Part shown: in pieces, positions 33,764 through 52,031 of the stretch
Layout of the letters: each line of letters opens with the position of its first letter
Position numbering within the stretch: position 1 is the first letter of the stretch
Assembly (NCBI RefSeq): GCF_003003775.1
Contig: NZ_PVWJ01000015.1
Span: 1 to 57,095 of the forward strand
Direction: 5' to 3'
DNA from: Merismopedia glauca CCAP 1448/3
GTDB taxonomy: Bacteria; Cyanobacteriota; Cyanobacteriia; Cyanobacteriales; CCAP-1448
DNA length: 57,095 nt
Position numbers and translations under genes: made by a program
Notes under the pieces: model-generated
Databases searched by the model: none
What the model saw: the letters and a program-made list of their open reading frames with translations, nothing else
Told to the model about the DNA's origin: nothing

Positions 33764-34243
33764 ATGAAAGCAGGCGAAATCATTCGCGTCATTGTTTTCT
33801 ATTTAATCGGCGCTATTTTAGTTTTTGTAGGGCAACCACTTCTATATCGTAATGGAATTATCGCTGTCAATGACGTACCAGAAGTCGAAACTTGGGTTAG
33901 CGATTATTATACGCCAGCAGCCGCAATAGTGTTTGGCATCTGCTTGCTCGCTACCATAATTTGGTTGGTTATAACTGCTATTTCTAAAGCAGATCTGGCT
34001 GAAGATATAGAAAAGTCAAGATTGTGGTGGTGGTTAATTGGGTTGCTACCAGTAATTAGTATCTGTGCGGCTATAGCTTTGTATAAAGAAGGAAGCGGTG
34101 AAGCACAATTGTCATTAGCTGTACTTTTCGTCTTAGATTTCCTCTGGTTATATTGGTTGACTACTGCTAGCAGTACCCCAGGATTATTCATGTTTATTCC
34201 GCCATTGGCAAGGCAACTGCGCGGCATGATAGGAGCGATATAA
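33764..34243 (+). CDS. Small membrane protein, first gene of the cluster
   Basis: The 159-residue protein has four hydrophobic helices (about residues 6-25, 44-68, 86-106 and 113-135), separated by short polar loops, and a short basic tail (PPLARQLRGMIGAI). There is no signal peptide cleavage site. No family is recognised. The stop codon overlaps the start of the tubulin-like gene (TAATG at 34241-34245), with AGGAG just before it, so the two are translationally coupled. It is a likely membrane partner for the tubulin-like protein. Confidence 0.7.
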   Translation: MKAGEIIRVIVFYLIGAILVFVGQPLLYRNGIIAVNDVPEVETWVSDYYTPAAAIVFGICLLATIIWLVITAISKADLAEDIEKSRLWWWLIGLLPVISICAAIALYKEGSGEAQLSLAVLFVLDFLWLYWLTTASSTPGLFMFIPPLARQLRGMIGAI

Positions 34244-35730
34244 TGGGAGTCTATTTAATTGGAGTTGGTGGTAGCGGGGCTAAATGCATTGAAGGTGTAA
34301 TTCAATTAGCCGCAGTGGGTTTGTTTACTGAAGAACCAATTAAAGTTTTATTTGTCGATGCCGATGAAACTAATGGTAACCTAGAACGTTCTCGTAACAG
34401 TCTGAAAACCTATCAAAGATGTTACGAATTGACGGCGGAAGGAGATAAACAAGAATGCCCTTGGATGAAGACTAAAATTGAATCTTTCGATTTATGGTCG
34501 CCCTTTGCCGAACAGAGCTTGAATAAAACTATCAAAACATTTTTCCAGTATAATACTATCAAGCAAAATCAACCAGCTTTAGGCAACTTATTCGATGTTT
34601 TGTATACTAAAGAAGAGCAAGATGCCGAGTTAGATGTTGGGTTTCGCGGCAGACCAGCTATAGGTTCAGCCGTGATGAGCCAAGTAGATTTAAACAGGTT
34701 AGAGCAAGAACCCTGGGGCAGTTTCATCAAGCAGATTCAGGCAGATACAGGTAGTGGAAAAATCCCAAAGATCCTGCTCTGCGGTTCAATTTTTGGTGGC
34801 ACGGGAGCATCGGGATTGCCCACAATTGCTCGTCTGATTGCTAATAAATTAAATGCCGTCAACGTGCGCGCTCGCGTGCAAATTGGTTGCCTTTTCTTAT
34901 TACCATACTTTGGCTTTGCAGCACCTCCAGGAGAAGATCCAGATGGAGTTTATGCCCGTTCAGAACAGTTTTTACTGAACACCGAAGCTGCATTACGTTA
35001 CTACCTTACCCAAGGCAAAGAAATCTTCGATACAGTCTATCTGCTGGGTAGTCAAAACCTATCGCGAGTCAACTTCAGTATCGGCAAAAATAGCCAACGC
35101 AATGAACCTCACTTTGTAGAACTCTATGGGGCGCTAGCTGTGAGGCATTTCCTCTTCCAACCTCCTTCAGAACCAGGTACAGTTGTCTTAGTGAGTCGAG
35201 AGAGTATTGGCAGGCTAACTTGGAATGACCTTCCAGATCGAGAGCAAGTCAAAGCAGATTTGATTAATGCTGCCAGATTTGCTTTTAGCTGGCTGTCGGG
35301 AATCGCCCCCGAATTAGAGAAGGCTAAAACTCAAGGTTTCGGCAGATTTGGCAACCTAGCTCCTTGGTTAACCAAATTTTACAGTAACGGTCGCGGAAAT
35401 CTACCTGATTTTAACGATCCTAACCAGCAAAATGCTATTGCGATCGTGAGCTACTGGTGTAAAGGTTTTCTGTGGTGGCTCTATTACTTGCATCAAGCAG
35501 AAGGAGAGGTAGTCGAGCTATTTAACGTTAAAGCTTGGGAAAACCTAAATGGAGAGCTAAAAGGCGAAGAATTGCCAAATTTAGCCATTAGAGACAACCG
35601 CGATCGCACCAGACAATCTCAAGACACCCCCGCTAGACTCAAAAATAACCTCGATCCCAAACGCCTCAAAGCCCCCAACCAAGGCACGATTGGACTTGCT
35701 AGAGCCTTGTACATCCTCTGTCGTCTTTAG
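34243..35730 (+). CDS. Tubulin/FtsZ-like GTPase (Tubulin_2-type)
   Basis: The 495-residue protein starts MGVYLIGVGGSGAKCIEGV, a Rossmann-type first loop as in the tubulin/FtsZ superfamily. It carries CGSIFGGTGASGLPTIARL at about residues 180-198; GGTGASG corresponds to the GGGTG[S/T]G phosphate-binding signature. Between them KVLFVDADETN matches the conserved second strand. The remainder is helical and divergent, as in the distant bacterial tubulin-like families reported near membrane-associated gene sets (FtsZl/Tubulin_2 groups). GTP binding and polymerisation are inferred from homology only. The gene is coupled to the membrane protein upstream and followed by an Hsp70/actin-fold ATPase. Confidence 0.75.
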   Translation: MGVYLIGVGGSGAKCIEGVIQLAAVGLFTEEPIKVLFVDADETNGNLERSRNSLKTYQRCYELTAEGDKQECPWMKTKIESFDLWSPFAEQSLNKTIKTFFQYNTIKQNQPALGNLFDVLYTKEEQDAELDVGFRGRPAIGSAVMSQVDLNRLEQEPWGSFIKQIQADTGSGKIPKILLCGSIFGGTGASGLPTIARLIANKLNAVNVRARVQIGCLFLLPYFGFAAPPGEDPDGVYARSEQFLLNTEAALRYYLTQGKEIFDTVYLLGSQNLSRVNFSIGKNSQRNEPHFVELYGALAVRHFLFQPPSEPGTVVLVSRESIGRLTWNDLPDREQVKADLINAARFAFSWLSGIAPELEKAKTQGFGRFGNLAPWLTKFYSNGRGNLPDFNDPNQQNAIAIVSYWCKGFLWWLYYLHQAEGEVVELFNVKAWENLNGELKGEELPNLAIRDNRDRTRQSQDTPARLKNNLDPKRLKAPNQGTIGLARALYILCRL

Positions 35731-35734
35731 TTAA

Positions 35735-35757: not shown

Positions 35758-35791
35758 GCTCAATCTCCCAAATACTTACTTATTACCGATC

Positions 35792-38700
35792 ATGACCATC
35801 CTCATCTTACCCAAGCTCAAGTCCGATAGCGACGTTAGACCTGCTGATGAATCTGGAAAATGGGATCTGCAACAAGCTAAAGCCTTTCAAGATGTTGCCT
35901 CTAGTTTAGATTATAAGGCTCCAGGGCAGGTCAAAAGCGTCAGTTCCGTCCCCACCATGTGGGCGCGTGCCCTATCGATGGAAATGGCGCTACACAACCC
36001 CTATTATCCCATTCGCCAGGAAATGATTCAACAATGGCAGGGAATGCTAGGTGCGATAGCTCTAGCAGAGGTGCGGGGATTTCCCCTCAAAGCTCAATTA
36101 GTCTGCTTGGGTAGCCTTAAAGATAAAGAGCCGTTTGCCCATTCTCTCTACGAACTTCTGCCAGATCCAGTCAATTCCCTGTATAGTTTAACCTCTCCTC
36201 CCAAACACGCTTGGGAAGACATTTATATCTTCCTCTGGCACGATAAAGCTGTTGGGATGAGTTCCCCCAGTACCTTAGTAGTTCCTGCTGAAGAAGGGAT
36301 ATGGACTAACTTACCTTGGTGGAACGATAAAACGGGTAAATTGGAATCTCCTCACCATCGTCTCAACAACACCGAAAGAGCTTTATTGTGGCGTTGGTTA
36401 GAAAATTTGCGGGATGAAGTTGGGAATAAAGAAAATAAATATCGAGGACAGAAACAAGCAATTAACACTATTGGCGGCTTAATTGAAGACTTTCGGCAAA
36501 GCTTGGGTAACTACCCCGAACAAATTCTAACTTTGAGCAATAACCCCCAATTCTTTCAAGTTCCTTTAAATCGAGGGGTACTTATTGCTCTCAACAAACC
36601 AGTCAAAGTCGAAGCGAAACCATCTTCTGTTAGGTTAATTAAAAGTCCAGAAAAAACTAACGTTCTCGATCTGTTAATTTTAGATCGGGAAATATCTACA
36701 GCTTGGAATGAATCGCCCCAAAATATCTGGGTTTATGGCAATCAAACTTTAGCATCTTTAAATATTGAAGCTCTCAAAAATAAAACTATTATTTGGGAGG
36801 GAGTCAGATGGATTGAATCGAAAGATTTATTCTTACCAGAATTCAAGTTTGTCGATTTAGAAGATGCTCTACCTGGTGCTTTTTTACCTCCAGGAATTCA
36901 GATTAATTTTAACGGACAGCGAGTTACCCCATTACTGCCCCTCAACCCAATTTTATTAGAGTATTTCACTTCAGAAGAATTAATTCGACACATTCAATTA
37001 AACCAGATTCAAAGTAGTGAAGGTTCTGTCTTAAGGTTCAGTTTAGATCTGCCACTTTCTGGGACAAATGGGACGCAGAATTATCGCATTTTCAAAGATT
37101 ACCAAATTAAAGAAGAAAACGCTTTACCAGAAGTTCCAGTCCTGGAAATATGGCCCCATTTTAGAGCAGAAGGTTGGCGCTCTTATTATGCATTTTACTA
37201 TGATGCTGAATTTGGAGACGAAACCTTCCAAGTCAATTTACCATCTGCAAGAGAACCTCATTTATTTAAAGATGGCAGAGGCTCTTATCAGATTACCAGA
37301 TTAGAAGAGTTTCCTTCATATATTAACTGCCAAGATCGCGATCGCCGAACTATCGGTTTGATTTTGCTCAGAACTCCCGAACTGAATAGATCTACTGGAA
37401 GTTGGCGAGTTGGAGTTGATTTCGGAACTTCCTTTACTAACATTTATGTGAATCGCAAAGGAGTTGTTGAGTCTCTCCCTTTACAGAGTTTGCATCTCAA
37501 AGTTACAGAAGTCCAAATAGATACTCGCAACCCTGTTTTATTTGAATACTTTGTCCCCGAAAGTTTTATTCCACCCGATAAACCATTACCTTTATCTAGC
37601 ATTCTGACAATTAGGGGAAATACTCATAGTCCTCAAGGAAAAGAACGTCCGATTTATGATGGGAGAATCTACGTTCCAGATCGGAATCGATTTAAGCCTC
37701 AAGAAGATTGGATCGAGACAGATTTGAAGTGGACAAACTTGGTGGCTAATCGCTTATTTCTACAGCATTTAGGCTTGCATATTTCGGCTTTGGCGGCTCA
37801 AAATAATGTCAAACAGGTACAATGGTGTTTATCTTATCCTTCAGCATTTTCTAATCGGGATCGCAAACTTTACGCTCAAAATTGGCAAGATTTAACTAAA
37901 GAATTACATGCACAAACCGGAATTACACATCTTTGTCCAGAAGTAGATGAACTAGACTATTTCCGCACTGAAAGTTTAGCTATTGCTCAATATTTTGCAG
38001 ATCGAGAAGGATACGATTTAGTTGGTAGTACCTGTATTGATATGGGTGGTGGAACTTCTGATATTTCCATTTGGGAAGATAATCAATTACTCCATCAATG
38101 TTCAGTGCAGTTAGCTGGAAGGGATTTATTTTCTCAGTTTCTCGAACTCAATCCTAAGTTTATTCAAAAGTTTGATGTTAAAGCCAATGAATTACAAGGG
38201 TTAAAAGAAGGTAATTTTAATGCCAAGCTGGACGTATTATTGCGGTTAGAAAGTGATAATTGGTTGAAGAAAATCGCCTTTTTGCAAGAAGATCCTGAAT
38301 TCCAAGGACTAATTAGATTGGTGGCGATCGGCACGGCTGGATTGTATTATTATGTAGGTACGATCTTGGGCGTTTTATCTAAAGAAGAAAAGTATCAGCG
38401 CAACGAAATTACTCCAGTTTATGTTGGTGGAAATGGCTCTAGGTTGCTGAATTGGTTGGATGTAAGAGGTAAATTTGATCGCAATTCTGAAATAAATGAA
38501 TTATTCAGCCGGATGCTGAGTAAAGGATCGGATTTTGAAGATACGGAAGAAAAAACTCGCTTGAGTCAACAACCTAAAGATGAGGTGGCTTGCGGTTTGG
38601 TTTTGAGCGATACTAAGTTACAGGGACTCAAGAAAAAAGCGAAAGATCCCTTGATTGCTGGAGAAAATTGCGAACTCAACAATGAGCTAATTAACTATCA

Positions 38701-39022
38701 AGATAGGTTGGAATTTGATGGCGAAATTAAAAACTTTAAAATCTCTCGCGATTTAGAACAGTTAAAGAGATTTTTATACGAGTTTAATTTGGGTTTAAGA
38801 GACTTAGAAATAGAAGGGATTACTCCCATGCCAGGTTTTAGACCAAAAGTCGGCTTAGAATCTAGCTATGACAGTCAACTTTGGCGAAATACTCTGAGAG
38901 AATTGGATAATACTTTGCTCAAAATTAAGGGCAATTCCGAAAATATTCGGGTAGAGCCTCCCTTTATTTTAGCCCTAAAGGCACTGTTACGGGTGTTAGG
39001 GAAGGAATGGGCGGGTAAGTGA
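35792..39022 (+). CDS. Large Hsp70/actin-fold ATPase with novel N-terminal region
   Basis: The 1076-residue protein has an actin/Hsp70-type ATPase in its C-terminal half: phosphate-1 WRVGVDFGTSFTNIYVN (about residues 538-554), phosphate-2 CIDMGGGTSDISIWE (about 748-762), and adenosine-type VYVGGNGSRLLNWL (about 875-888). All key residues (Asp of DFGT, GGGT) are present, so it should bind and hydrolyse ATP. About 535 N-terminal residues are unrecognised and contain beta-rich stretches (LDLLILDREISTAW; WEGVRWIESKDLF) that recur in the paralogue at 43642-46686. No signal peptide or membrane helix is seen. It sits directly behind the tubulin-like gene and is probably in the same operon. Confidence 0.8.
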   Translation: MTILILPKLKSDSDVRPADESGKWDLQQAKAFQDVASSLDYKAPGQVKSVSSVPTMWARALSMEMALHNPYYPIRQEMIQQWQGMLGAIALAEVRGFPLKAQLVCLGSLKDKEPFAHSLYELLPDPVNSLYSLTSPPKHAWEDIYIFLWHDKAVGMSSPSTLVVPAEEGIWTNLPWWNDKTGKLESPHHRLNNTERALLWRWLENLRDEVGNKENKYRGQKQAINTIGGLIEDFRQSLGNYPEQILTLSNNPQFFQVPLNRGVLIALNKPVKVEAKPSSVRLIKSPEKTNVLDLLILDREISTAWNESPQNIWVYGNQTLASLNIEALKNKTIIWEGVRWIESKDLFLPEFKFVDLEDALPGAFLPPGIQINFNGQRVTPLLPLNPILLEYFTSEELIRHIQLNQIQSSEGSVLRFSLDLPLSGTNGTQNYRIFKDYQIKEENALPEVPVLEIWPHFRAEGWRSYYAFYYDAEFGDETFQVNLPSAREPHLFKDGRGSYQITRLEEFPSYINCQDRDRRTIGLILLRTPELNRSTGSWRVGVDFGTSFTNIYVNRKGVVESLPLQSLHLKVTEVQIDTRNPVLFEYFVPESFIPPDKPLPLSSILTIRGNTHSPQGKERPIYDGRIYVPDRNRFKPQEDWIETDLKWTNLVANRLFLQHLGLHISALAAQNNVKQVQWCLSYPSAFSNRDRKLYAQNWQDLTKELHAQTGITHLCPEVDELDYFRTESLAIAQYFADREGYDLVGSTCIDMGGGTSDISIWEDNQLLHQCSVQLAGRDLFSQFLELNPKFIQKFDVKANELQGLKEGNFNAKLDVLLRLESDNWLKKIAFLQEDPEFQGLIRLVAIGTAGLYYYVGTILGVLSKEEKYQRNEITPVYVGGNGSRLLNWLDVRGKFDRNSEINELFSRMLSKGSDFEDTEEKTRLSQQPKDEVACGLVLSDTKLQGLKKKAKDPLIAGENCELNNELINYQDRLEFDGEIKNFKISRDLEQLKRFLYEFNLGLRDLEIEGITPMPGFRPKVGLESSYDSQLWRNTLRELDNTLLKIKGNSENIRVEPPFILALKALLRVLGKEWAGK

Positions 39023-39025
39023 TAG

Positions 39026-39088: not shown

Positions 39089-39152
39089 GGTGTTAGGTTG
39101 GGTAGAGTCAGCCAAACTCAACCTATCTAGCAAAATGGGGAAGGTAGCGCGT

Positions 39153-40358
39153 ATGGCAAAATGTCCGGTTTGTAATACTGAATATACTCAAGGACAAGAC
39201 GAATTGTGTCCAAAATGCCGTCTACCGTTTGAATTGTATTCCCTGCTTTACGAGAGAGATAAAATATTAGCAGAAAGGTGGATAACTTGGGCTAGAGGGT
39301 TATTTCACAGCAAATTAAACAACTTCGGAATTTTAACTCCATCTTATCCTCAAACAACGTCCCCTGAGATTCAACCTGAGTTCTTGGCAACAATAACTCA
39401 AGCTGTAAATCGCCAAAAAGAGATCGATCGGCGAGTTCGACATTTAGAAGAGCTTGAGAAAGAACGGGAGAATAAACAGTATCAAATTGATTTAGAGCGC
39501 TCAAGAATGATATCTGATGTCAAAACCGAGGTGAACCGCCAAATCGACAAGGAGAGAGCCAATTTACACTTTCAAATCTCTCAACTAGAAGAGCAGTTAA
39601 GAAAGGAAAAACAAGAGCGATCGCATTTCCAATCTCACATATCTAATTTAGCAGCAGAATTCACCCCTAGACTATCAAATCTCGAAACTCAGTTAGACCA
39701 AGATAGAAAAGAGCGATCGCATTTCCCATCTCAGATCTCTCAATTACAACAAAATGTATCCCAAACTTTTAGCAACTATGAAACTTGGTGTCAAAACACT
39801 AATCAATCTATCAATTCTTTGACTACTAAGGTAGGAGAAATTCAAACTAACGTCGCACAACTTCAAGAGTATTCCCGAAATAACCAACGGCTAAATAGTG
39901 TAACTCAAATTAATGCACCTACCCCTACATCTAGATCCACAACACCAATAGAATCTAGTCAAGTTAACGTAAGTCAAGCTTTAAGCTTGGACGAATCCAA
40001 CTTAGTTAGTAAATACAATAATAATCCTAACATTTTTACCAACAAAATCGAAGTTTCAGAAACTAAAGAAAGTAACGATAACCGTCGTGGTGGAAGTAAC
40101 CAATCGCCAATTTTAGAAACATCTCGTCGTGCTAACTACTGGATTATTAGTGAATCCGGTTTTTACTACTTAGTTCCCAGTCCAAATTTGAAACTGAATG
40201 AATTTAATTATAAAACTGTGGAAGCCTTTTTCAAATGCCATAATTACGGAGAAAACTCTTCTCGAAACGTGCGACTTTTCAAACCCGCTCAAGTATCTGC
40301 TTTACCAGGAGGAGAAAAATGGGAACTGATCCAACCTGGCGTGATTCAGTTTGAGTAA
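39153..40358 (+). CDS. Zinc-ribbon, coiled-coil protein with one copy of the cluster's ~115-residue domain
   Basis: I chose ATG 39153 (401 residues; MAKCPVC), with AAGGT upstream; earlier starts lie in repeat sequence. Residues 4-22 form a Cys4 zinc ribbon (CPVC...CPKC). Residues about 85-255 are coiled coil (heptads rich in Glu, Gln, Arg, Leu). The C-terminal ~117 residues form the recurrent domain: LVSKYNNNPNIF, ANYWIISESGFYYLVP, LNEFNYKTVEAFF, LFKPAQV, WELIQPGVIQFE. The last ~210 codons are almost identical to the middle of the gene at 41956-43572. It is cytoplasmic, with no signal or membrane segment. The role is probably scaffold or adaptor. Confidence 0.7.
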   Translation: MAKCPVCNTEYTQGQDELCPKCRLPFELYSLLYERDKILAERWITWARGLFHSKLNNFGILTPSYPQTTSPEIQPEFLATITQAVNRQKEIDRRVRHLEELEKERENKQYQIDLERSRMISDVKTEVNRQIDKERANLHFQISQLEEQLRKEKQERSHFQSHISNLAAEFTPRLSNLETQLDQDRKERSHFPSQISQLQQNVSQTFSNYETWCQNTNQSINSLTTKVGEIQTNVAQLQEYSRNNQRLNSVTQINAPTPTSRSTTPIESSQVNVSQALSLDESNLVSKYNNNPNIFTNKIEVSETKESNDNRRGGSNQSPILETSRRANYWIISESGFYYLVPSPNLKLNEFNYKTVEAFFKCHNYGENSSRNVRLFKPAQVSALPGGEKWELIQPGVIQFE

Positions 40359-40380
40359 ATTACATAATAAGCGAGGGATT

Positions 40381-41856
40381 ATGAATATAGTTAAGGGGAA
40401 TTATATCAAAGTATTATTAGCTTTATTAGTGGCGATCGCACCTGTCCTTGTATTAGATTATCGACCTTCAGGAGCGCAATCAAGTCCGTCTAGCACTCCA
40501 GCAGTAAACCAAACAAACAATGCATTTAACCAACTTAAAAAGTCTAGAGATGAGTTGAAAGCATCGCTAGATAAATTCAAGGAAGCCATTAAAAAAGCAG
40601 TTAAAGATAAAAAACTCAATGGTATAGATAGTCAAGAGGTTACTGCTAAAATCGCTGCTCTAAAGACAGCCAAAACAGATTTTTTTAAATCGGAAACCTC
40701 CGCTCAATCTAAAGAAACGGCGACTCAAATAGATGAAGCGATCGCCGCCATATCTCAAGTTATCGATCCATTAAACCAAGGATTGACCAAGACAAATGAA
40801 GATAAAATTGCACAAGTTCAAAGATATCTAAAATTAGACAAAAAAGATCAAACTAAAGGTAAATTTAGTGAACCTCCCAATAAAAAAGGTTACGGTGATT
40901 TTGGAGATGCAACTCAAGGAGCAATAGATACATTCTTAACTGACGAGTTTGGAAAATTAGATAATGCCATTAATCAATTAGAGAATTTAAGCGCAGAAAA
41001 GCCAACAGTAAATTCCGACAAACCTACTGGAGCAAGTAAAGAAAAAACAGCCTCAGACAATAACTCATCCAACTGGTTTCCTCTTTTCGCAGCAGCATTA
41101 TTCGGTGCAATTTTAGGTTCTATAGCTTCCATTTTTGGAGCAGAATTTTTCCGCAGGCGCTCCCAGATTCCAACTCAACAAACACCACCAAAAACACAAG
41201 AATCCCAATCGACAGAATCCTCCCAAATCAAATATCTGAATGCAAGAATTGATAGTCTAACCACCAACGGAAAAACCGATTCTGGACGCATTGAGAATCT
41301 AGAAAATCAAATACGAAGATTACAAGGCGAGGTAATAGCTCTCAGTCACAGTGGCTCTAGCAACGTCACTTCAACGAGTTGGGAGATAAATCCAACTCCA
41401 TCACCATACCAAAATCCAATTTCGCTACCCTTCGACGATCCACAAGCATATTCAGCAGTAAGCTACGAAACTAATACACCTCAAGCTTCCCAAACTCCTC
41501 AATTAGTAGATATTTATAATCATAATCCGCGCTCTTTATCGGGGAAAGCGATAGAAGTAGGAGAAACGGAAGAGAGTATTAATAATCGTCGCTTGAGTGG
41601 TAATCAATTAGCTATATTAGAAAACAAGCGGGGTGGTAGTTATTGGATTATCAAAGAAGACAGCATCGATTATATGCTTCCAAAGCAAAATCTTAAAATT
41701 AATGAATACAACTATTCAACAGTTGAAGTGTTATTTGAATGTCGTAATTATGACGCTAATTACTCTGACTATAAACTGGTAAAGCCTGCTAGAGTTCAAA
41801 TGGTTTCTGGCGGTACTTGGCAGTTACAAGAACGAGGAATTATCGAATTTTACTAA
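40381..41856 (+). CDS. Envelope-spanning protein: signal peptide, PG-binding-like segment, TM helix, cluster domain
   Basis: ATG 40381 has GAGGG 5 nt upstream (491 residues). Residues 1-33 are a signal peptide or anchor ending PSGAQ. A Lys-rich helical part follows, then IAQVQRYLKL...GYGDFGDATQGAIDTFL (about residues 143-186), which resembles a peptidoglycan-binding domain ('VQ..L...G.FG.AT..A'). A transmembrane helix lies at 232-254 (FPLFAAALFGAILGSIASIF), flanked by basic FFRRR, so the C-terminus should be cytoplasmic. After a coiled coil the recurrent domain occupies about 375-491 (LVDIYNHNPRSL...GGSYWII...EYNYSTVEVLFECRNY...QERGIIEFY). It could tie the cytoplasmic components to the cell wall. 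Confidence 0.65.
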   Translation: MNIVKGNYIKVLLALLVAIAPVLVLDYRPSGAQSSPSSTPAVNQTNNAFNQLKKSRDELKASLDKFKEAIKKAVKDKKLNGIDSQEVTAKIAALKTAKTDFFKSETSAQSKETATQIDEAIAAISQVIDPLNQGLTKTNEDKIAQVQRYLKLDKKDQTKGKFSEPPNKKGYGDFGDATQGAIDTFLTDEFGKLDNAINQLENLSAEKPTVNSDKPTGASKEKTASDNNSSNWFPLFAAALFGAILGSIASIFGAEFFRRRSQIPTQQTPPKTQESQSTESSQIKYLNARIDSLTTNGKTDSGRIENLENQIRRLQGEVIALSHSGSSNVTSTSWEINPTPSPYQNPISLPFDDPQAYSAVSYETNTPQASQTPQLVDIYNHNPRSLSGKAIEVGETEESINNRRLSGNQLAILENKRGGSYWIIKEDSIDYMLPKQNLKINEYNYSTVEVLFECRNYDANYSDYKLVKPARVQMVSGGTWQLQERGIIEFY

Positions 41857-41955
41857 GTTTATAGCACTAAACAGATAATAATATGTTTGAGGAATGTCAA
41901 AACCTGGAGTTAATGTAAAAATCCGAAGCGATCGCTATGTAACTAGCTAATTTAT

Positions 41956-43572
41956 ATGTTCGATTTACCTGAGTCTGACTTGATAGAGATCTACAATTAC
42001 CTGCCACAAATTTTACTGCGAAAGGCTATCAAAATACTAGTAAAGGAGAGTGATAATTCTGGTGATCGCTTAATCTTAACAGAAGAAAGAAATGGAAATT
42101 ATTGGGCGATCGCCACTGAAGAAAAAACTAACTTTCTCTTTCCCAAAGCATACTATAAGATCAATGAATTTAACATCAATACGGTTAATCAGTTATTTGA
42201 TTGCCAAAACTTTGAATCAAAAGAAACTAGAGAATTTATTGTGAAGAAACCAGCAATAGTTTCTCGTCTACCCGATGCAGAACAATGGAAGCTAGAAGCG
42301 AAAGGTATACTAGAGTTTGGAAATAAGTCTTCATCGGAATTAGAACAGCTAAAAAATAGGTGCGATCGCCTACAATCTCAAGTCGAAGATTTAATGCAAG
42401 AACGCGATCGCTTAGCATTAGAATTAGCAGAACTAGCTTGCGATCGCCTCTCTGAAATACGCTCTCAATTAGTCACAAAAGATGAATTTAAAAAAGAAAT
42501 AGAGTTGATAAAACAAGAGCGATCGCAATTTTCATCTCAGATTTCTCAATTACAACAAAATGTATCCCAAACTTTTAGCAACTATGAAGCTTGGTGTCAA
42601 AACACTAATCAATCTATCAATTCTCTGACGACTAAGGTAGGAGAAATTCAAACTAAAGTCGCACAACTTCAAGAGTATTCCCGAAATAATCAACGGCTAA
42701 ATAGTGTAACTCAAATTAATGCACCTACCCCCACATCTAGCTCGGTAAAGCCTACAGAATTCCGTCAAGTTAATCTAAGTCAAGCTTTAAGCTGGGAAGA
42801 AGCCAACTTAGTTAGTAAATATAATAATAATCCTAACATTTTTACCAACAAAATCGAAGTTTCAGAAACTAAAGAAAGTAACGATAACCGTCATGGTGGA
42901 AGTAACCAATCACCAATTTTAGAAATATCTCGTCGCGGTAACTACTGGATTATTAGTGAATCCGATTTTTACTACTTAGTTCCCAATCCAAATTTGAAAC
43001 TGAATGAATTTAATTATAAAACTGTCGAAGCCTTTTTCAAATACCATAATTACCCAAAAGATTTTTCTCAAAAATTGCGACTTTTCAAACCTGCTCAAGT
43101 ATCTCCTTTACCAGGAGGAGAAAAATGGGAACTGATTCAACCTGGTGTGATTCAGGCAACAACAAAAACAGAATATAATGAAGACGAATTTTTGTTTTAT
43201 ATTCCGCCATATTATCATTTGCTAAATGTTTATAATCGCAATCCGCATACTTTATTGGGAAAAGCCATAGAAGTAAGAGAAACGGAAGATAGTATTAACA
43301 TTCGTCGCTTGAGTGGCGATTCTTCAGCTACCTTAGAGAGGCAAAATGGTGGTAGTTATTGGATTATAAAAGAAGAAAATACTGATTACGTGCTTTTGAA
43401 GAAAAATTTCAAAATTAATGACTACAACCATTTCACTGTTGAAGTGTTATTTGAATGTCGTAATTATTATTCTAATTACTCTGACTATAAACTTGTAAAG
43501 CCTGCTACAGTTCAAATGATTTCTGGCGGTACTTGGCAGTTACAAGAACGAGGAGTCTTGGAATTTCATTAA
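41956..43572 (+). CDS. Protein with three copies of the cluster's ~115-residue domain
   Basis: The 538-residue product has three domain copies: about 9-122 (LIEIYNYLPQIL...GNYWAIAT...KPAIVSRLP), 284-400 (LVSKYNNNPNIF) and 420-538 (LLNVYNRNPHTL). Copies 1 and 2 are separated by a coiled coil. The stretch from the coiled coil through copy 2 is nearly identical to the end of the 39153 gene; copy 3 closely matches the end of the 40381 gene; copy 1 resembles the start of the 43642 gene. It is therefore a mosaic assembled from neighbouring genes. No membrane segment is visible. A multivalent scaffold is the simplest reading. Confidence 0.7.
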   Translation: MFDLPESDLIEIYNYLPQILLRKAIKILVKESDNSGDRLILTEERNGNYWAIATEEKTNFLFPKAYYKINEFNINTVNQLFDCQNFESKETREFIVKKPAIVSRLPDAEQWKLEAKGILEFGNKSSSELEQLKNRCDRLQSQVEDLMQERDRLALELAELACDRLSEIRSQLVTKDEFKKEIELIKQERSQFSSQISQLQQNVSQTFSNYEAWCQNTNQSINSLTTKVGEIQTKVAQLQEYSRNNQRLNSVTQINAPTPTSSSVKPTEFRQVNLSQALSWEEANLVSKYNNNPNIFTNKIEVSETKESNDNRHGGSNQSPILEISRRGNYWIISESDFYYLVPNPNLKLNEFNYKTVEAFFKYHNYPKDFSQKLRLFKPAQVSPLPGGEKWELIQPGVIQATTKTEYNEDEFLFYIPPYYHLLNVYNRNPHTLLGKAIEVRETEDSINIRRLSGDSSATLERQNGGSYWIIKEENTDYVLLKKNFKINDYNHFTVEVLFECRNYYSNYSDYKLVKPATVQMISGGTWQLQERGVLEFH

Positions 43573-43641
43573 TTGCATGAGAATGTTCTTGATGATTTTA
43601 CAATTCAGAAAAACAAAAAAAGCCCAAAAAATTGCATAAAT

Positions 43642-46600
43642 ATGGATACAGAAAATAATCAGCAACATACTAACAACCCGCAGACTTCAAATACAAATTT
43701 TACTGAAGATGAACTGCTGGAAATATACAATCGTATTCCAAGACTTTTAGCCAACAATATCATTAAAGTTTCAGTATTAGAAGTAAAACAAGCACTGAAT
43801 TATAATTACCAAGTTTTATTGGTAGAAGAAAGAAATGGAAACTATTGGGTAATAAATACAAAATCGACAGAAGATGAAACTTACTGGCTCGTACCTAAAG
43901 GCTCTTTCAGAATTAATCAGCATAATATCAATACTATCAAGTCCTTATTTGAATGTTTGGAATTTAAACTGGAGCAAACTAGAGAGTTTATCCTGAAAAA
44001 ACCTGCTAAAATCTCTCGTTTACCTAACCAAGATCAATGGAGTCTACAAGCGAAAGGAATACTAGATTTTGGTAATAGGTCTTCATCAGAGTTGGAACTG
44101 AAAAAAAACAAGCGCGATCGCCTACAATCTCAGATAGAAGAATTGATTCAAGAACGCGATCGCCTCGCATCTCAATTAGCACAAACTGGTTCAGATCGCC
44201 TCACTAAAGTTGAAAAACCAACAGAAGATATAAAGGAAGACAAAGCGGATAAGTTGCAACAGGAAAAACAAGAGCGATCGCACGTCCGATTAATCCCTAG
44301 TCCTGAAAAAAATAATACAATAGATCTCCTAATTATCGATAGTGGTATTGCGACTACTTGGAAGGAATCGCCTGAAAATATCCGAGTCTATGACAACCAA
44401 ACTCTAGCATCTTTAAATGTTGAGGAATTCAAGAGTCAAAAAATTGTCTGGGAGGGGATAAGATTAATTGAATCAAAAGATTTATTCTTGCCAGAATTCA
44501 AATTTATCGATCTAGAAGATGCCTTGCCAGGGGCTTTTTTACCTCCTAACATTGAAATTAATTTTATCGGACAACGGATTACTCCTTTACTCCCACTTAA
44601 CCCAATTTTATTAGAGTATTTCACGTCAGAAGAACTAATTAAACGCATCCAAATAACTCCTATTCAAAAAAGTTCTCTGTTACGAGTTAGTTTAGATCTG
44701 CCACTGTCTGGAGTTAATAATAGCAACCAATCGCAGATTTATTGCATCTTCAAAGATTACCAAATTAAAGAAGAAAATGCTTTACCCGAAGTTCCAGTAT
44801 TAGAAATTTGGCCCCATTTTCAAGCCGAAGGGTGGCGATCTTATTATGCATTTTACTACGATGCTGAGTTTGGAGACGAAACATTTCAAGTGAGTTTACC
44901 ATCAGCTAGGGAACCCCATTTGTTCAAAGATGGCAGAGAATCTTTTCAAATTAGTAGACTCGAAGAATTTCCATCATACATCAACTGCCAAGATCGCGAT
45001 CGCCAAACTATTGGTTTGATTTTACTCAGAAGTCCAAAAGTTACTATATTAAAGGACTATTGGAAAGTTGGTGTTCATTTCAGTACATCTTTTACTAACG
45101 TTTATGTGAATCGAAAAGGTATAGTTGAATCGTTACCTCTAGAAAGCTTGCATCTGAAAGTTACAGAAGTCGGAACAGAAACCCGTATCCCCGTTTTATT
45201 TGAATATTTTGTTCCTGAAAATTTTATACCACTAGATAAACCATTACCCCTATCTAACGTTCTGACAACGAGGGGAAATAGTCACAGTCCCCAAGGAAAA
45301 GAACGCCCAATTTATGATGGTAGAATTTACTTCCCAGATCGCAATCGATTTAAACCCCAAGAAGACTGGCTTGAGACAGATTTGAGTTTTAAAAACTTCG
45401 TTGCTCATCGATTGTTTTTACAGCATTTAGGCTTGCACATCTCGGCTTTGGCAGCTAAAAATAACGTTAGGGAAGTGCAATGGTGTTTATCTTATCTTTC
45501 AAATGCCTCCAAGCGCGATCGCAAACTGTACGCCCAAAACTGGCAGAATATAACTAAGGAATTACAAACCCAAACAGGAATAACCCATCGCTGTCCTGAA
45601 GTAGATGAATTAGAATACTTCCGTACTGAAAGTTTGGCGATCGCTCAATATTTTGCCGATAGGGAAGGGTATAATTTAGTCAATAGCACCTGTATCGATC
45701 TGGGTGGTGAAACTTCCGATATTTCAATTTGGGAAAATAACCAACTCCTACATCAATGTTCTGTTCAGTTAGCGGGAAGAGATTTATTTTCTCAATTTCT
45801 AGAACTCAATCCTAAGTTCATTCAAAAGTTTGATGTCAAAGTTAATGAATTACAAAAATTAAAGGAAGGTAACTTCAATGCAAAATTAGATGTACTGCTG
45901 CGTTTAGAAAGTCAAAATTGGTTAGAGAAAATAGTTTTTCTGCAAGACGATGTGGAATTTCAAGGATTGATTCGATTAGTGGCGATCGGCACTGCTGGGT
46001 TGTATTACTACCTTGGTATAATATTGAAGACTTTGCACCAAGAAAGAAAATATCAACATCAAAAAATTACCTCGGTTTATGTTGGTGGATATAATTCTAG
46101 TGTACTGAATTGGCTAGATGAAAGAGGTAAATTTGATCGCAATTCCGAAATCAATCAGTTATTCAGTCGGATGCTGAGTAAAGGATCTGGTTTTGAAAAT
46201 ACAGACGAAATCACTAGGTTAAGTTCCAACCCAGGAGATGAGATAGCCTGTGGATTGGTACTAACTAATACTAAGTTAAGAATGGCGACAACTATAGCAA
46301 AAGATCCTTTAATTGCTGGGGAAAATTGTGAACTGAACGGACAAAATATTACCAGTCAAGGAAGATTAGAGTTTGACGGAGAAATTAAAGACTTCCGAAT
46401 CTCTCGCGAACTAGAACATTTAAAGCGGTTTTTATACGAGTTCAATCTGGGTTTAAGAGAGTTAGATATGGAAGGAATTAAACCTATGTCTGGATTTAGA
46501 CCAGGTACGGGTTTAGAATCTAGTTATGACAGTCAACTTTGGCGCAATACTTTGAGAGAATTGGATAATACCTTGCTCAAAATTAAGGGTGATTCCGAAA

Positions 46601-46686
46601 ATATTCGGGTAGAGCCTCCCTTTATTTTAGCTTTGAAGGCATTACTGCGGGTTTTGGGTAAGGAATGGGCAGGAAAAAAAGAATAA
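43642..46686 (+). CDS. Hsp70/actin-fold paralogue with degenerate nucleotide-binding motifs
   Basis: I chose ATG 43642 (1014 residues); an upstream TTG at 43573 is less likely. The N-terminal ~145 residues are the recurrent cluster domain (LLEIYNRIPRLL...GNYWVINT...LKKPAKISRLP), then a coiled coil. From about residue 213 it is collinear with the 35792 protein at high identity. However, the phosphate-1 motif reads VGVHFSTSFTN (DFGTS changed to HFSTS) and phosphate-2 reads DLGGETSDIS (GGGT changed to GGET). The catalytic Asp and two glycines that contact phosphates are therefore lost, while VYVGGYNSS is mostly kept. It is probably a non-hydrolysing partner of the active ATPase. Confidence 0.8.
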   Translation: MDTENNQQHTNNPQTSNTNFTEDELLEIYNRIPRLLANNIIKVSVLEVKQALNYNYQVLLVEERNGNYWVINTKSTEDETYWLVPKGSFRINQHNINTIKSLFECLEFKLEQTREFILKKPAKISRLPNQDQWSLQAKGILDFGNRSSSELELKKNKRDRLQSQIEELIQERDRLASQLAQTGSDRLTKVEKPTEDIKEDKADKLQQEKQERSHVRLIPSPEKNNTIDLLIIDSGIATTWKESPENIRVYDNQTLASLNVEEFKSQKIVWEGIRLIESKDLFLPEFKFIDLEDALPGAFLPPNIEINFIGQRITPLLPLNPILLEYFTSEELIKRIQITPIQKSSLLRVSLDLPLSGVNNSNQSQIYCIFKDYQIKEENALPEVPVLEIWPHFQAEGWRSYYAFYYDAEFGDETFQVSLPSAREPHLFKDGRESFQISRLEEFPSYINCQDRDRQTIGLILLRSPKVTILKDYWKVGVHFSTSFTNVYVNRKGIVESLPLESLHLKVTEVGTETRIPVLFEYFVPENFIPLDKPLPLSNVLTTRGNSHSPQGKERPIYDGRIYFPDRNRFKPQEDWLETDLSFKNFVAHRLFLQHLGLHISALAAKNNVREVQWCLSYLSNASKRDRKLYAQNWQNITKELQTQTGITHRCPEVDELEYFRTESLAIAQYFADREGYNLVNSTCIDLGGETSDISIWENNQLLHQCSVQLAGRDLFSQFLELNPKFIQKFDVKVNELQKLKEGNFNAKLDVLLRLESQNWLEKIVFLQDDVEFQGLIRLVAIGTAGLYYYLGIILKTLHQERKYQHQKITSVYVGGYNSSVLNWLDERGKFDRNSEINQLFSRMLSKGSGFENTDEITRLSSNPGDEIACGLVLTNTKLRMATTIAKDPLIAGENCELNGQNITSQGRLEFDGEIKDFRISRELEHLKRFLYEFNLGLRELDMEGIKPMSGFRPGTGLESSYDSQLWRNTLRELDNTLLKIKGDSENIRVEPPFILALKALLRVLGKEWAGKKE

Positions 46687-46697
46687 TTAAAATTCAC

Positions 46698-46862
46698 CCA
46701 AAATTGCCATCAGATTGAAGTCTGTGGCTATACAAACTAAGTCACCTACGCTAAAATTTCAGGACGTTACAGATTGGGTTTCACTTGCTACAATCAAAGA
46801 AAATAGCGATTGCTACAAACAGCTTCTATATTTGAATAGATAAATCTGGAAATAAATTAGTT
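46698..46862. other. Intergenic gap with decayed dispersed repeat
   Basis: This gap begins with the decayed copy of the repeat found after the first Hsp70-like gene (CAGATTGAAGTCTG, GGCTATACAAACTAAGTC). The remainder up to the next GTG start is AT-rich with no clear signal. Confidence 0.55.
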
Positions 46863-47750
46863 GTGGAAGAAAACACGAATATTGCTCAGCAAAACACACC
46901 TGATGCAAGTACAGAAAATCTGTTAGATGCGAGGATTCAAACGCTAGAATCCAAATTAACTCAACTGGAATCTCAACAAAATTCCTTCAACTTTGTTCCT
47001 ATTTTCTTAGCTGCTATTATAGGTGCTATTTTAGGTTCAATCTTCACCGCAGTAATTTTCCGTCAGCTATTATCTGGGAATAATCGCTCCAAAAAAGGTA
47101 GATTAGCGGCTGAACAAACTCAACCAAATCAAGAAGTAGAATCTCAAACCACACAATATTTAACTGCTACTGTCAATCATCTTTCTACCAAATTCAAAAC
47201 CATTTCTGAACAAGTTAAAAATCTAGAAAGTCAGTTATCAGATTTTGAGGTTGGATCGAGAAGTAGCAGTCAAAGTATATCTAATACCCTTCAATCTTCT
47301 GAGACAAATTTAGAACAAACTACACCATCATATTTGAGTGAAAGTAGATCGGAAACAGCAACAAAAAATGATTATAGTATTTCTCTAACCCCTAAACTGG
47401 TAGATATTTACAATCGCGATCGCAATGCTCTATCCTACAAAGGTATAGAAGTCGCAGAAACTGAAGAAAGCAGCAATAATCGTCGCCTTAGTGAGACTAA
47501 AGTAGTAATTTTTGAAAATAAGCGTCAGGGAAATTATCGGATAGTTAAAGAAAAAGGCATTAATTATCTAATTCCCCAGCCAAATTTCCAAATCGATGCA
47601 TCTAACTATTCAGAAATTCAAGCTGTATTTGAATGTCAGAATTATTCAGCCAACTATTCTAATTTTCAATTGGTTCAACCAGCTACCGTTTTACCCATTT
47701 CTGGCGGACTCAATTGGTGTTTAGAAGAAAGAGGAATATTGAAATTTTAG
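46863..47750 (+). CDS. Membrane-anchored protein with one cluster domain
   Basis: The 295-residue product starts at GTG 46863. A coiled coil is followed by one transmembrane helix at about 41-66 (FVPIFLAAIIGAILGSIFTAVIF). This helix shares GAILGSI with the helix of the 40381 protein. A second coiled coil (residues 95-135) and a Ser/Thr-rich linker lead to the recurrent domain (about 178-295: LVDIYNRDRNALSY...GNYRIVKE...NYSEIQAVFECQNY...EERGILKF). The N-terminus probably faces the periplasm and the domain the cytoplasm. It looks like a shortened version of the 40381 protein without the peptidoglycan-binding-like part. Confidence 0.65.
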   Translation: MEENTNIAQQNTPDASTENLLDARIQTLESKLTQLESQQNSFNFVPIFLAAIIGAILGSIFTAVIFRQLLSGNNRSKKGRLAAEQTQPNQEVESQTTQYLTATVNHLSTKFKTISEQVKNLESQLSDFEVGSRSSSQSISNTLQSSETNLEQTTPSYLSESRSETATKNDYSISLTPKLVDIYNRDRNALSYKGIEVAETEESSNNRRLSETKVVIFENKRQGNYRIVKEKGINYLIPQPNFQIDASNYSEIQAVFECQNYSANYSNFQLVQPATVLPISGGLNWCLEERGILKF

Positions 47751-47817
47751 GCAAACTAAAATAGTTGTTAATAATAAGTAAATAATTGATTTTGAGTAAT
47801 ACTCAATCATCAAGATT

Positions 47818-48630
47818 ATGAAAAACTCTGAGAATAACTTGGAAAATCTAAATCAAGAAATTATTCGCCTCAGAAAGCGATTGGATAACATAGAAAGCTC
47901 ATTAGCTTTCCCAGAATCGAGACAACTCAACAAAGCCTTGGAAATACCTAAAGTTAGCAAAATTAAATTATCAGAAGGCAAACTAGTTGAAGTTTTTAAT
48001 GATGTGCCACAGTTGTTATCTGCATATGCAACTTCTGTTTCTTTAACAGCTTCCAGCTATCGGCAAATTAACCAAATGCCAATAGTGTTAGAGAATGCTA
48101 ATTGGGGTAATTATTGGGTTATTGCCACAGAAGATGATTATTGGCTTTTACCAAACATAAAACTGAAGCTGAATATCCATAAACTTAAGACAATTAAATA
48201 TTTGTTCAAGTTAGAAAAAAAATCATCTGCCAATACCGATGAATACTCTCTAATTAAACCAGCTAAAGTTTCTCTAATGCCAAATGGATGTGAGTGGAAA
48301 CTAGAAGCATCAGGAAAAATAGAATTTGGCAGTTACAGAGAATTTCAATGGCGATCTGAACTAGAAATAATTGACTTACAAAGCCAAAAACTTCAGTCTT
48401 TATTAGAACAAGCAGATCGACAAAGCCAGGAACTTCAATCCCAAATCGATCGCATACCAGAAGAACGTTCTCTCCTCATTTCTCAGCTATCAGAATCACT
48501 TAATAATTGGCGCAAAAACCTAACTTCTCAACTGGATCTAGATTCACCACAATTAGAGACATCTGAACCTGTTAATGCAGCTATCAAAAAGTTTATGAAC
48601 TTCACCCGCACCTTGAGGGACAAATTTTAA
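47818..48630 (+). CDS. Coiled-coil protein with one cluster domain
   Basis: The 270-residue soluble protein has an N-terminal coiled coil (NLNQEIIRLRKRLDNIESS), the recurrent domain at about 57-172 (LVEVFNDVPQLLSAYATSVSLTASSYRQ...GNYWVIATEDDYWLLP...KPAKVSLMP...WKLEASGKIEFG), and a C-terminal coiled coil (LQSLLEQADRQSQELQSQID). The domain variant with SYRQ and NIHK-TIK-LF is shared with the first domain of the 49911 protein, marking a subfamily. It lies at the end of the first run of cluster genes, before a minus-strand Rpn-type gene. Confidence 0.65.
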   Translation: MKNSENNLENLNQEIIRLRKRLDNIESSLAFPESRQLNKALEIPKVSKIKLSEGKLVEVFNDVPQLLSAYATSVSLTASSYRQINQMPIVLENANWGNYWVIATEDDYWLLPNIKLKLNIHKLKTIKYLFKLEKKSSANTDEYSLIKPAKVSLMPNGCEWKLEASGKIEFGSYREFQWRSELEIIDLQSQKLQSLLEQADRQSQELQSQIDRIPEERSLLISQLSESLNNWRKNLTSQLDLDSPQLETSEPVNAAIKKFMNFTRTLRDKF

Positions 48631-48661
48631 TTTTAAGAGGTCAAAACCCCAGCTAGTACAT

Positions 48662-48690
48662 GAAGTCAGAAGTCAGAAGTCAGAAGTCAA
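48662..48690. repeat. GAAGTCA heptamer repeat
   Basis: Four tandem units of GAAGTCA occur here, another 7-bp-period array. It sits in the gap between the cluster and the Rpn-type gene. Confidence 0.75.
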
Positions 48691-48804
48691 AATCTTCGAT
48701 CTATGAGTTTTTGAGCTTTTTTGAACTGACTGGTTATTCATGCCTTGCTGCACTAGATCGTCTCAACTTCAGTCAATTATATTGGTCAAACAGGCGATCG
48801 CACT

Positions 48805-49815: not shown

Positions 49816-49910
49816 GAAAGAATAATTTGATAGTCTAGACTATTGCCTTAATTTTACCTTAAAATAGATTCAATACCGGAGTTAGTAATAGTTTTTTACT
49901 TTTCAAAAAT

Positions 49911-52031
49911 ATGACTGAACGCGAGCCAGATCTTACAGAAATTATTAAAGAATTTTCTTCTTTACAAGAGCGCGTATCAAAATTAGAAAATAATGGCAAA
50001 ACTGAAAGTTTTAGCCAAAAAGATGTCAAAATAAATGGCAATGTGGAAGTTGTTCAAGCCACCCGAATCGACTTATCTGAACTTAAGTTATTGGAACTAT
50101 ATCATGACTGTCCGCAAATATTAGAAATTATAGCTATTAGAGTTAACTTAACTGCGGATAGCTATCGTCAAACAAGTGAAGAGAAAATATTTTTAGAAAA
50201 AGTTGCTAACGGTAATTATTGGGTTATGGCTGCCCAGAATGATGATTACTGGCTATTTCCTCATATCAAGCTTAGCCTGAATATTCATAAAGTCAAGACG
50301 ATTAAACAGTTATTCAACTGTTCTGGAGAAGCAAAAAAAGACTTTATTGTCACCAAAGCAGCTAAAGTTTCTTTAATGCCTAGCGGACAAGAGTGGAAGT
50401 TAGAAAAGAAAGGAGATCTAGAATTTACAGATTCTCCATTCGTGAAACAACAATCAGAAATAGAAAAAGTAGATCGAAAATATAGAAAGCTTGAAGGTGA
50501 AGTAGTCAAAGCAAATCGCCAACAACATTTACTCGAATTAAAGCTAGAAAAAGCTTTGGAATTACTCAAGAAGTATGGATTGGAAATCAAGAATCTTAAA
50601 AGTCAAGTTTACGATCTGAAAAAAAATTTAGAATATCAATTTGCTACAGGTACAAAACAGCAACAATTAGTCTCGATATATAATAAAAATCCTCAAACTT
50701 TATCAAATCAAATAATACTAGTTTCCGAGACTTCTAATAGTATCAATCAGCGCCATATCGGAAATAGTAAACAAGTTGAGTTTGTGAATAATATTAATGG
50801 GATATATTGGATAATTAGCGTAGAAGATGAACATTACCTAGTTCACGATAAAAGTCAATTTCAGATTAATGAACATAACTTGAAAACGGTAGAAGCTATG
50901 TTTAAATATAGTCACTATCAAGCTGGAAAGTCTCAAGAAATAGAGTTAATTAAACCAGCTAGAGTATGTTCTATCGGCGAAAATATGTGGAGACTGTTAG
51001 AAAAAGGAGTTTTCAAGTTTAAAAATGATGATTTGGAAGTGCAAATAACAGAAGAAATAGATGATTTAGACTGGGAAGAAATAGATAAAATTGAAATTTT
51101 AGAAATTAGAGAGGAAGTGGAACAACAGGAAGAAACCCTTCCTCAAGTACAATTGATACGTACTCTGACTGGACATACCAAAGCGGTGCGATCGCTCGCC
51201 ATTAGTCGCTGGGAAGCAGATAACCACAAGCAAATCCTAGCTAGTGGAAGTTTTGACCAAACTATCAAGCTATGGGAACTCAAGAGTGGAGAACAGATCG
51301 GAACTCTGACAGCAGGAGAAATGGTAAATGCTCTAGCACTCACGCTTGATGGTAAAACCCTAGTAGCTAACAGCAGACAGGATTCCCTCGAAGTCTGGAA
51401 CTTATACAATGCCAAGCGTACCACTATTGGAGAACATACAGACTGGATTTTTAGCCTGGTTCTTAGCTTAGATGGTGAAATTATCGCCAGTGGTTCTCGC
51501 GATGAAACCATCAAGATTTGGGATCTGGAAACTCAGGAACTGGTACAAACCCTCACTGGTAATTGTCAAGGCGCACTAGCCATTGCGATCGCCCCCGATA
51601 ATCATACCCTAGTTAGTAGTTGCGGTGACAAAGCCATTAGAATTTGGAACCTGGAAACTGGCGCTTTAATTGCCACCTACTGTCAACCAGAGTTAATTTG
51701 GAGTCTTGTCATTACTCCAGATGGCAAAACCTTGATTTGCGGGAGTCGCGATCGCACTATCTCCCTATTAGATCTCAATACAGGGGCAGTAAAATCTACC
51801 CTGATGGGTCATACTGAACCAGTATGGTGTCTGGCGATCGCACCCGACGGGAAGACATTAGCTAGTGGTAGTGGCGATCGCACCATTAAGTTATGGAATC
51901 TCAATCGTGGCGAATTAATTACCACTTTAAACGAGCATACAGATGAAGTCTACACGCTGGCGATCGCTTCAGATAGCAAAACCCTAGTCAGTGGTAGTCG
52001 AGACAATACCATCAAGATTTGGCAACTCTAA
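49911..52031 (+). CDS. Two cluster domains fused to a seven-bladed WD40 propeller
   Basis: The 706-residue protein has a short N-terminal coiled coil, domain copy 1 (about 59-173: LLELYHDCPQIL...SYRQ...GNYWVMAAQNDDYWLFP), a coiled coil (180-245), and domain copy 2 (253-373: LVSIYNKNPQTL...GIYWIISVEDEHYLVH). A very acidic linker (about 376-408) follows, then seven WD40 blades (LTGHTKAVRSLAISRW...TIKLWELKSGE; last ITTLNEHTDEVYTLAIASD...IKIWQL). Several blades have degenerate GH or WD dipeptides. It combines the cluster domain with a protein-interaction propeller and closes the cluster, after the Rpn-type insertion. No signal or membrane segment is present. Confidence 0.75.
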   Translation: MTEREPDLTEIIKEFSSLQERVSKLENNGKTESFSQKDVKINGNVEVVQATRIDLSELKLLELYHDCPQILEIIAIRVNLTADSYRQTSEEKIFLEKVANGNYWVMAAQNDDYWLFPHIKLSLNIHKVKTIKQLFNCSGEAKKDFIVTKAAKVSLMPSGQEWKLEKKGDLEFTDSPFVKQQSEIEKVDRKYRKLEGEVVKANRQQHLLELKLEKALELLKKYGLEIKNLKSQVYDLKKNLEYQFATGTKQQQLVSIYNKNPQTLSNQIILVSETSNSINQRHIGNSKQVEFVNNINGIYWIISVEDEHYLVHDKSQFQINEHNLKTVEAMFKYSHYQAGKSQEIELIKPARVCSIGENMWRLLEKGVFKFKNDDLEVQITEEIDDLDWEEIDKIEILEIREEVEQQEETLPQVQLIRTLTGHTKAVRSLAISRWEADNHKQILASGSFDQTIKLWELKSGEQIGTLTAGEMVNALALTLDGKTLVANSRQDSLEVWNLYNAKRTTIGEHTDWIFSLVLSLDGEIIASGSRDETIKIWDLETQELVQTLTGNCQGALAIAIAPDNHTLVSSCGDKAIRIWNLETGALIATYCQPELIWSLVITPDGKTLICGSRDRTISLLDLNTGAVKSTLMGHTEPVWCLAIAPDGKTLASGSGDRTIKLWNLNRGELITTLNEHTDEVYTLAIASDSKTLVSGSRDNTIKIWQL

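Follow-up and report, generated by a model that had tools for sequence, protein, structure and literature searches.

An actin-fold paralogue with a degenerate nucleotide site, probably a pseudo-ATPase partner, in a conserved cyanobacterial cassette

In the ribosome-associated complex, the non-canonical Hsp70 Ssz1 does not hydrolyse ATP and supports its active relative Ssb (PMC7083937). The second actin homologue of Magnetospirillum magneticum AMB-1, MamK-like, has been proposed to interact laterally with active MamK (cited in PMC5059902). Tubulin-like GTPases are encoded in operons with membrane proteins in FtsZl1/Tubulin_2 systems and are thought to remodel membranes (PMC2875224). Tubulin-like proteins or HSP70 also occur in the mobile neighbourhoods of GTPase-centric (DO-GTPase/GAP1-N2) conflict systems, a subset of which has a second gene carrying an HSP70 domain alone (PMC7159879).

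A cassette of actin-like, tubulin-like and X-domain proteins

The window, that is, the whole stretch of DNA analysed, comprises 57,095 nucleotides of Merismopedia glauca CCAP 1448/3 (contig NZ_PVWJ01000015.1), whose genome spans 5.2 Mb; relatives carrying the gene studied here are cyanobacteria. Two proteins of the window, A and B, are members of a conserved cyanobacterial cassette that also encodes a small membrane protein, a tubulin-like GTPase and several X-domain proteins, as defined by profiles built in this analysis. Its extent in the window is 33764 to 52031:

33764..34243, + strand: small membrane protein of 159 amino acids with several predicted transmembrane stretches, first cassette gene; in 48 of the 54 named loci with A, the gene directly before the tubulin-like one matches the TM profile
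34243..35730, + strand: tubulin/FtsZ-like GTPase, 495 amino acids, GGTGASG loop; Tubulin_2 (PF13809) E=1.7e-4, below the Pfam cut-off
35792..39022, + strand: protein A, intact actin/Hsp70-fold ATPase, 1076 amino acids; N-terminal AN domain 1-280, core 330-1076
39090..40358, + strand: zinc-ribbon-like N-terminus, coiled coil and X domain (E=2e-41)
40351..41856, + strand: coiled-coil X-domain protein with a hydrophobic stretch (X domain E=5e-42)
41956..43572, + strand: three X domains and a coiled coil; its N-terminus is the nearest known relative of the B N-terminus (51% identity, ~196 amino acids)
43642..46686, + strand: protein B, 1014 amino acids from ATG; X domain and coiled coil joined to an actin-fold core whose nucleotide site is destroyed
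46863..47750, + strand: X-domain protein with a hydrophobic stretch (X domain E=2e-37)
47818..48630, + strand: X-domain protein (X domain E=3e-37)
49911..52031, + strand: two X domains and a WD40 propeller (WD40 E=3.9e-59), probable final cassette gene

The gene order is membrane protein, tubulin-like GTPase, A (AN and core) and then, usually, several proteins that contain X or have it at their C-terminal end, often with coiled coils. Across 54 named loci with an AN-bearing A, the tubulin-like gene was found in 52, the membrane protein in 48 and at least one X protein in 45. The tubulin-like protein of the window scores 21.4 bits against Tubulin_2, short of the Pfam cut-off of 27; 14 of its 15 relatives match the family (best E 3.7e-10), and the GGTGASG and GxGGxGAK-type loops are invariant in all 15. 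X is a domain of ~115 residues without a Pfam match. Seven window proteins (39090-52031) contain 10 copies of it, with as many as three in one protein, and most related cassettes encode it as well; the system may in fact centre on this domain. On a Gloeothece plasmid, too, the cassette is followed by a WD40 protein with X (L161 6200-8020).

Inserted after the X genes of the window and ahead of its WD40 gene is an opposite-strand gene (48805-49815) with a weak Transposase_31 match (PF04754, E=0.005, below cut-off). A lipoprotein with a vWA-like sequence (NIDGSESM; L110 22275-23243) lies near four cassettes and recalls the vWA partners of other tubulin-like systems. The A protein of Planktothrix rubescens (L125 9101-12397, the same as L060) has intact motifs and a first ~350 residues that are not recognised as AN, and the tubulin-like gene is absent from the flanks examined at that locus. 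PADLOC identified no known defence system: its hits were confined to weak coiled-coil matches and a repeat-based one to the WD40 protein. The cassette is apparently unnamed: no description of an actin-like/tubulin-like/X cassette was found in a literature search that covered few subscription journals.

Both A and B were modelled with AlphaFold from family alignments, with mean pLDDT of 87.0 and 81.4, respectively; the core of B was mostly above 90 and its X domain was of low confidence. Both models have the two-lobed actin-like fold of the ASKHA superfamily. Against Caulobacter crescentus MreB (4czk), the A model superposed over residues 536-940 (Z 18.7, rmsd 3.3, 279 residues) and the B model over 472-876 (Z 17.9, rmsd 3.4, 281 residues). 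FtsA and actin stood near MreB among the structural matches of both, with DnaK and Hsp110 also among those of B; the top Foldseek match for B was DnaK, and the top Z-scores of a second structural search were to MreB. These matches span mainly residues 535-949 of A and barely cover the C-terminal part, which bears on the question of an Hsp70 substrate-binding domain. No Pfam or NCBIfam family scored above cut-off for A or B. The Hsp70 family gave no match in either database for A or B, nor in Pfam for 38 relatives of A, and FtsA and MreB, both below cut-off, were the only sequence-family matches. The proteins had been described from the sequence as Hsp70-like; the actin/Hsp70 superfamily fold is borne out, and the Hsp70 label is too narrow because no Hsp70 family matches at the sequence level and the structural matches include MreB, FtsA, actin and Hsp70 alike.

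The degenerate nucleotide site of B

The cores of A and B are 80% identical over B residues 210-1012 (~800 residues, the actin/Hsp70-fold core). The N-terminal ~210 residues of B, by contrast, have no relation to A; they best match the N-terminus of the 41956 protein, in an alignment that takes in the beginning of the coiled coil of the latter. The B reading frame is also open from TTG at 43573. The nucleotide-site features of the pair are as follows:

37409..37432, + strand: A phosphate-1 motif VGVDFGTS, A residues 540-547
38039..38062, + strand: A phosphate-2 motif DMGGGTSD, A residues 750-757
45067..45090, + strand: B degenerate phosphate-1 motif VGVHFSTS, B residues 476-483; D543H and G545S (A numbering)
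45385..45387, + strand: B serine in place of conserved Lys646 (A numbering), a lysine lost in 6/6 dead lineages tested and kept in the Gloeothece copy
45490..45510, + strand: B degenerate connecting motif SYLSNAS (SYPSAFS in A)
45697..45720, + strand: B degenerate phosphate-2 motif DLGGETSD, B residues 686-693; G754E (A numbering)
46084..46101, + strand: B degenerate adenosine motif GGYNSS (GGNGSR in A)

The canonical phosphate-1, phosphate-2 and adenosine motifs of the ASKHA superfamily are present in A and its intact relatives and absent as such from B. The initial annotation had quoted the phosphate-1 and phosphate-2 motifs of both reading frames, and all four were found as quoted; its count of two damaged motifs was too low, as conserved residues are lost from four motifs of B and from two lysines, K646 and K929 (A numbering; glycine in B). 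It had also described the rest of the protein as closely conserved, which holds for the core and does not extend to the unrelated N-terminal residues. Where intact copies are at least 90% conserved, B is altered at 8 of 31 positions within motifs versus 4 of 91 elsewhere (Fisher p=0.0018), and A at 0 of 31 and 1 of 91, respectively.

Positions equivalent to Asp543 and Gly545 contact Mg and phosphate in the actin/Hsp70 superfamily. Because both are replaced in B, and because the glutamate in its phosphate-2 loop should clash with phosphate, B probably does not bind Mg-ATP, as judged from its sequence. It is distinctly unlikely that B instead has an altered activity, binding another nucleotide or ligand, or binding ATP without hydrolysis as Ssz1 does (PMC7083937). 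The phosphate-2 residues D, GG and TSD and the adenosine GG that B retains would suit such an activity, but B has replaced Asp543, Gly545, Lys646 and the third glycine of GGGT, this glycine with the glutamate that should clash, and in other lineages this loop contains Arg, Asp or Glu.

Divergence of the pair is constrained. The A/B dN/dS is 0.114 (NG86) or 0.085 (YN00), with dS of 1.1-1.4, and B contains no stop codons, which agrees with the earlier argument that conservation away from the motifs speaks against random decay. Polarised residue changes number 99 on the B branch versus 44 on that of A, so that B evolves about twice as fast, yet under constraint. When this region was evolved neutrally in a crude simulation, ~20 to 35 stops arose over the range of rates tried and identity fell to between 64% and 30%, against the 0 stops and 80% observed. 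With catalytic residues lost and both the fold, as predicted, and purifying selection kept, B has the attributes of a pseudoenzyme. The duplicate in the window also appears to be old, since A and B agree at only ~50% of fourfold sites across the core.

Dead second copies in other cyanobacteria

Second copies with broken motifs, here called dead, were found in at least six other lineages, mostly downstream of A within the same cassette:

Lyngbya confervoides BDU141951 (L118): dead copy, X-core fusion
Richelia sinica and Sphaerospermopsis kisseleviana (Nostocales; L111/L112): dead copies, core only
Family f14, genome G116 (L044): dead copy, X-core fusion
Family f14, CG_2015-22 (L135): dead copy, core only
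Genome G265 (L045): dead copy away from its cassette
Trichodesmium (L049/L141): dead copies, incomplete
Gloeothece verrucosa plasmid (L161 747-3239): dead copy

For each dead copy an A with intact motifs is present in the same genome, Trichodesmium MAG_R04, where A was not sought, aside; in Trichodesmium G152, a stop divides A. The AN domain is missing from every dead copy long enough to judge. Three or more critical changes were found in 1 of 97 AN-bearing copies (Westiellopsis, L107) versus 10 of 21 AN-less copies, counts that include near-duplicates and contig-cut copies and hence carry no p value; AN-less copies with intact motifs also exist (L047, L052/L053). A candidate in genome G238 (L051) was dropped as a dead copy, as it is altered within the critical set only at R884Q, which also occurs in AN-bearing copies.

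Some individual loci deserve mention. In the Trichodesmium erythraeum metagenome-assembled genome GBRTRLIN201, a TAG stop splits an intact-motif A into two reading frames in a cassette that is otherwise complete (L103 1952-5224, the same as L050). The mobilizable plasmid Cy782204 of Gloeothece verrucosa PCC 7822 carries a complete cassette together with its dead second copy (L160 17935-26218, L161 8-8020), annotated as hypothetical proteins except for tubulin-like, WD40 and ABC-substrate-binding labels, and two TIR-domain genes lie close by. The cassette could serve in defence, in membrane work or in the organisation of plasmid or cell. Partial motif loss is seen in two AN-bearing copies, the third copy of Xenococcus sp. 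MO_188.B8 (L155 10001-13399; DISGSTSE) and that of Westiellopsis prolifica (L107 9104-13243; SYRSSF, DVGGNTSD, IAGNGG); these are possible intermediates toward dead copies.

Relatives were sought with A-family patterns that include the phosphate-1 motif, and dead copies were found mainly within 10 kb of A; they are consequently under-counted. A scan of genome contigs with B alone gave no matches. Most cassette-bearing genomes yielded no dead copy, and the dead copy is therefore an accessory, non-essential part.

The initial annotation held that B would be simply a degenerating duplicate if second copies elsewhere kept the canonical motifs, and the opposite is seen, with the motifs lost in these other lineages as well. 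Its treatment of the second copies as orthologues of one ancestral dead gene gives way to repeated origins. In a tree computed without the motif columns, each dead copy or dead pair has as its sister the live copy from the same genome or clade (support 100 for the window pair), and the dead/live label changes seven times, once at L051, which is not counted as dead. A single origin was rejected: an AU test on a reduced sequence set under a simpler model spoke against grouping the dead copies in one clade, with p=8.6e-5 and an lnL difference of 910. For the Gloeothece copy, identity was the sole basis of placement, at 69.5% to its own A and 55% to the next best. In each of three X-core fusions the nearest relative of the fused X domain is another X of the same genome (51%, 60% and 61% identity), and for this reason the fusions seem, from the sequences, to have arisen separately. 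An assembly error as the source of B was ruled out by the independent recurrence and the constrained divergence.

Gene conversion, by which one ancient dead gene would have been held A-like, would make A and B look like sisters in each genome and would suit the similar cassette position in several genomes. We judge it very improbable as an account of origin, the only matter it concerns, since it fits any function: no converted tract is seen in the window pair (fourfold identity averages ~50% with no extended near-identical stretch, and the longest identical run is 40 nt), the dead motifs differ among lineages, and the fused X domains derive from different local X genes. No dead signature or fusion junction common across lineages was found.

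The losses fall largely on the same sites. Across six lineages, K646, A685 and R884 are altered in all six and five positions in at least five, compared with means of 0.002 (all six) and 0.07 (at least five) under a null of random placement of equal numbers of changes with all conserved positions equally changeable; none of 20,000 permutations reached the observed values. This shows that constraint on these residues, as read from the alignment, was lifted each time, which is what nucleotide-site loss predicts. Neither K646 nor R884 is diagnostic alone, because the Gloeothece copy keeps K646 and R884Q occurs in some AN-bearing copies. A search for the same His, Ser and Glu in orthologues had been suggested; most of the sites are the same, and the substitutions differ in detail, being D543H/G545S/G754E here and DIGN, YMRR, HIED or YLLD elsewhere. 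The orthologous pair in Richelia and Sphaerospermopsis has IDFR[NS]DYTS and DIGN..SNIS in common and evolves at a dN/dS of 0.22 (YN00) to 0.40 (NG86).

Such values exceed the ~0.09-0.18 of A (YN00 dS is unusable for most distant pairs), and because dead copies outpace A, some of the pattern is relaxed constraint. Core duplicates might arise often, lose the ATP site first and head for loss without any function, a course consistent with this faster evolution, the patchy distribution and the presence of its own duplicate in most lineages. That reading is already weakened, and we hold it quite improbable: dN/dS lies well under 1, full-length dead reading frames are uninterrupted, orthologous dead copies have substitutions in common across genera (Richelia/Sphaerospermopsis and G116/CG_2015-22), and the window duplicate is old by its fourfold sites.

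Conservation beyond the motifs is high: dead copies retain on average 82% of the positions that are at least 80% conserved in intact copies, and retention is lowest in 736-795, the stretch with the phosphate-2 loop. Such full-length preservation exceeds the needs of a minimal scaffold, and dead copies mostly co-occur with intact A. Both points make it unlikely that the B core is a rigid binding platform for X proteins or the tubulin-like GTPase and does not pair with A, an explanation that draws on the X fusions of B-type cores in three lineages, the absence of AN from all dead copies and the several dead lineages with a bare core adjoining X genes.

Interpretation and comparison with known systems

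We favour, at a probability of roughly 0.6, the reading of B as a pseudo-ATPase that has been retained and that pairs or co-assembles with A, within an assembly of two NTPases, one actin-like and one tubulin-like. We infer the pairing from the preservation of the whole core and from the occurrence of dead copies mostly where intact A is also found, and the separate loss of the same site in at least six cyanobacterial lineages suggests that the dead copy probably serves the live one as a partner. The core of A would have been duplicated and joined to a local X-domain adaptor, and the duplicate would have lost nucleotide binding or hydrolysis and retained the fold, making B a nucleotide-independent subunit of A. 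Its X domain would tie A to the membrane and coiled-coil X proteins beside the tubulin-like GTPase, and A-B would form an inactive/active heteromer, in principle like Ssz1 with Ssb. More tentatively, the cassette could encode an undescribed accessory cytoskeleton-like machine of cyanobacteria, with an actin-like ATPase and a tubulin-like GTPase as its components, for which dead actin-like subunits, often fused to X, were repeatedly invented to cap, seed or anchor a live filament or dimer; in such a machine these subunits would be a bacterial parallel to nucleotide-independent actin-related proteins.

The locus resembles FtsA-FtsZ and MreB in its pairing of actin-like with tubulin-like genes and in the superposition of the modelled A and B cores on MreB and FtsA (highest Z 18.7 and 17.9, respectively); it differs in sequence matches below curated cut-offs, in its N-terminal domains and in its partners. 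To our knowledge, MamK-like belongs to the MamK family, where the X domain and the tubulin-like gene are absent. The likeness is that of a second actin homologue proposed to act beside an active bacterial actin (cited in PMC5059902). Ssz1 is likewise a non-hydrolysing protein of the actin/Hsp70 fold that works beside an active relative (PMC7083937), but it still binds ATP and keeps the Hsp70 substrate-binding domain, whereas B has lost more of the site and no such domain is recognised in it. FtsZl1 proteins are mostly long with a coiled coil and have vWA, kinase, GTPase and OmpA partners, an actin-fold partner not being known among those described (PMC2875224). GTPase-centric conflict systems differ in their DO-GTPases, GAP1 and FNIII repeats; in them tubulin and HSP70 belong to separate themes, and cyanobacteria almost entirely lack such systems (PMC7159879). 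Neither a TRAFAC GTPase nor GAP1 was recognised by Pfam profiles among the cassette proteins scanned.

This comparison draws attention to a conserved, apparently unnamed cassette of actin-like and tubulin-like proteins. The purpose of a dead actin-fold subunit can be approached here through comparison and through simple deletions in cyanobacterial cultures. Active/inactive pairs have so far been known singly, as in Ssz1, prozymes and MamK-like, whereas in the present family one and the same nucleotide site was lost in parallel at least six times next to a live copy, each time in a protein without AN, and an adaptor was gained at least three times.
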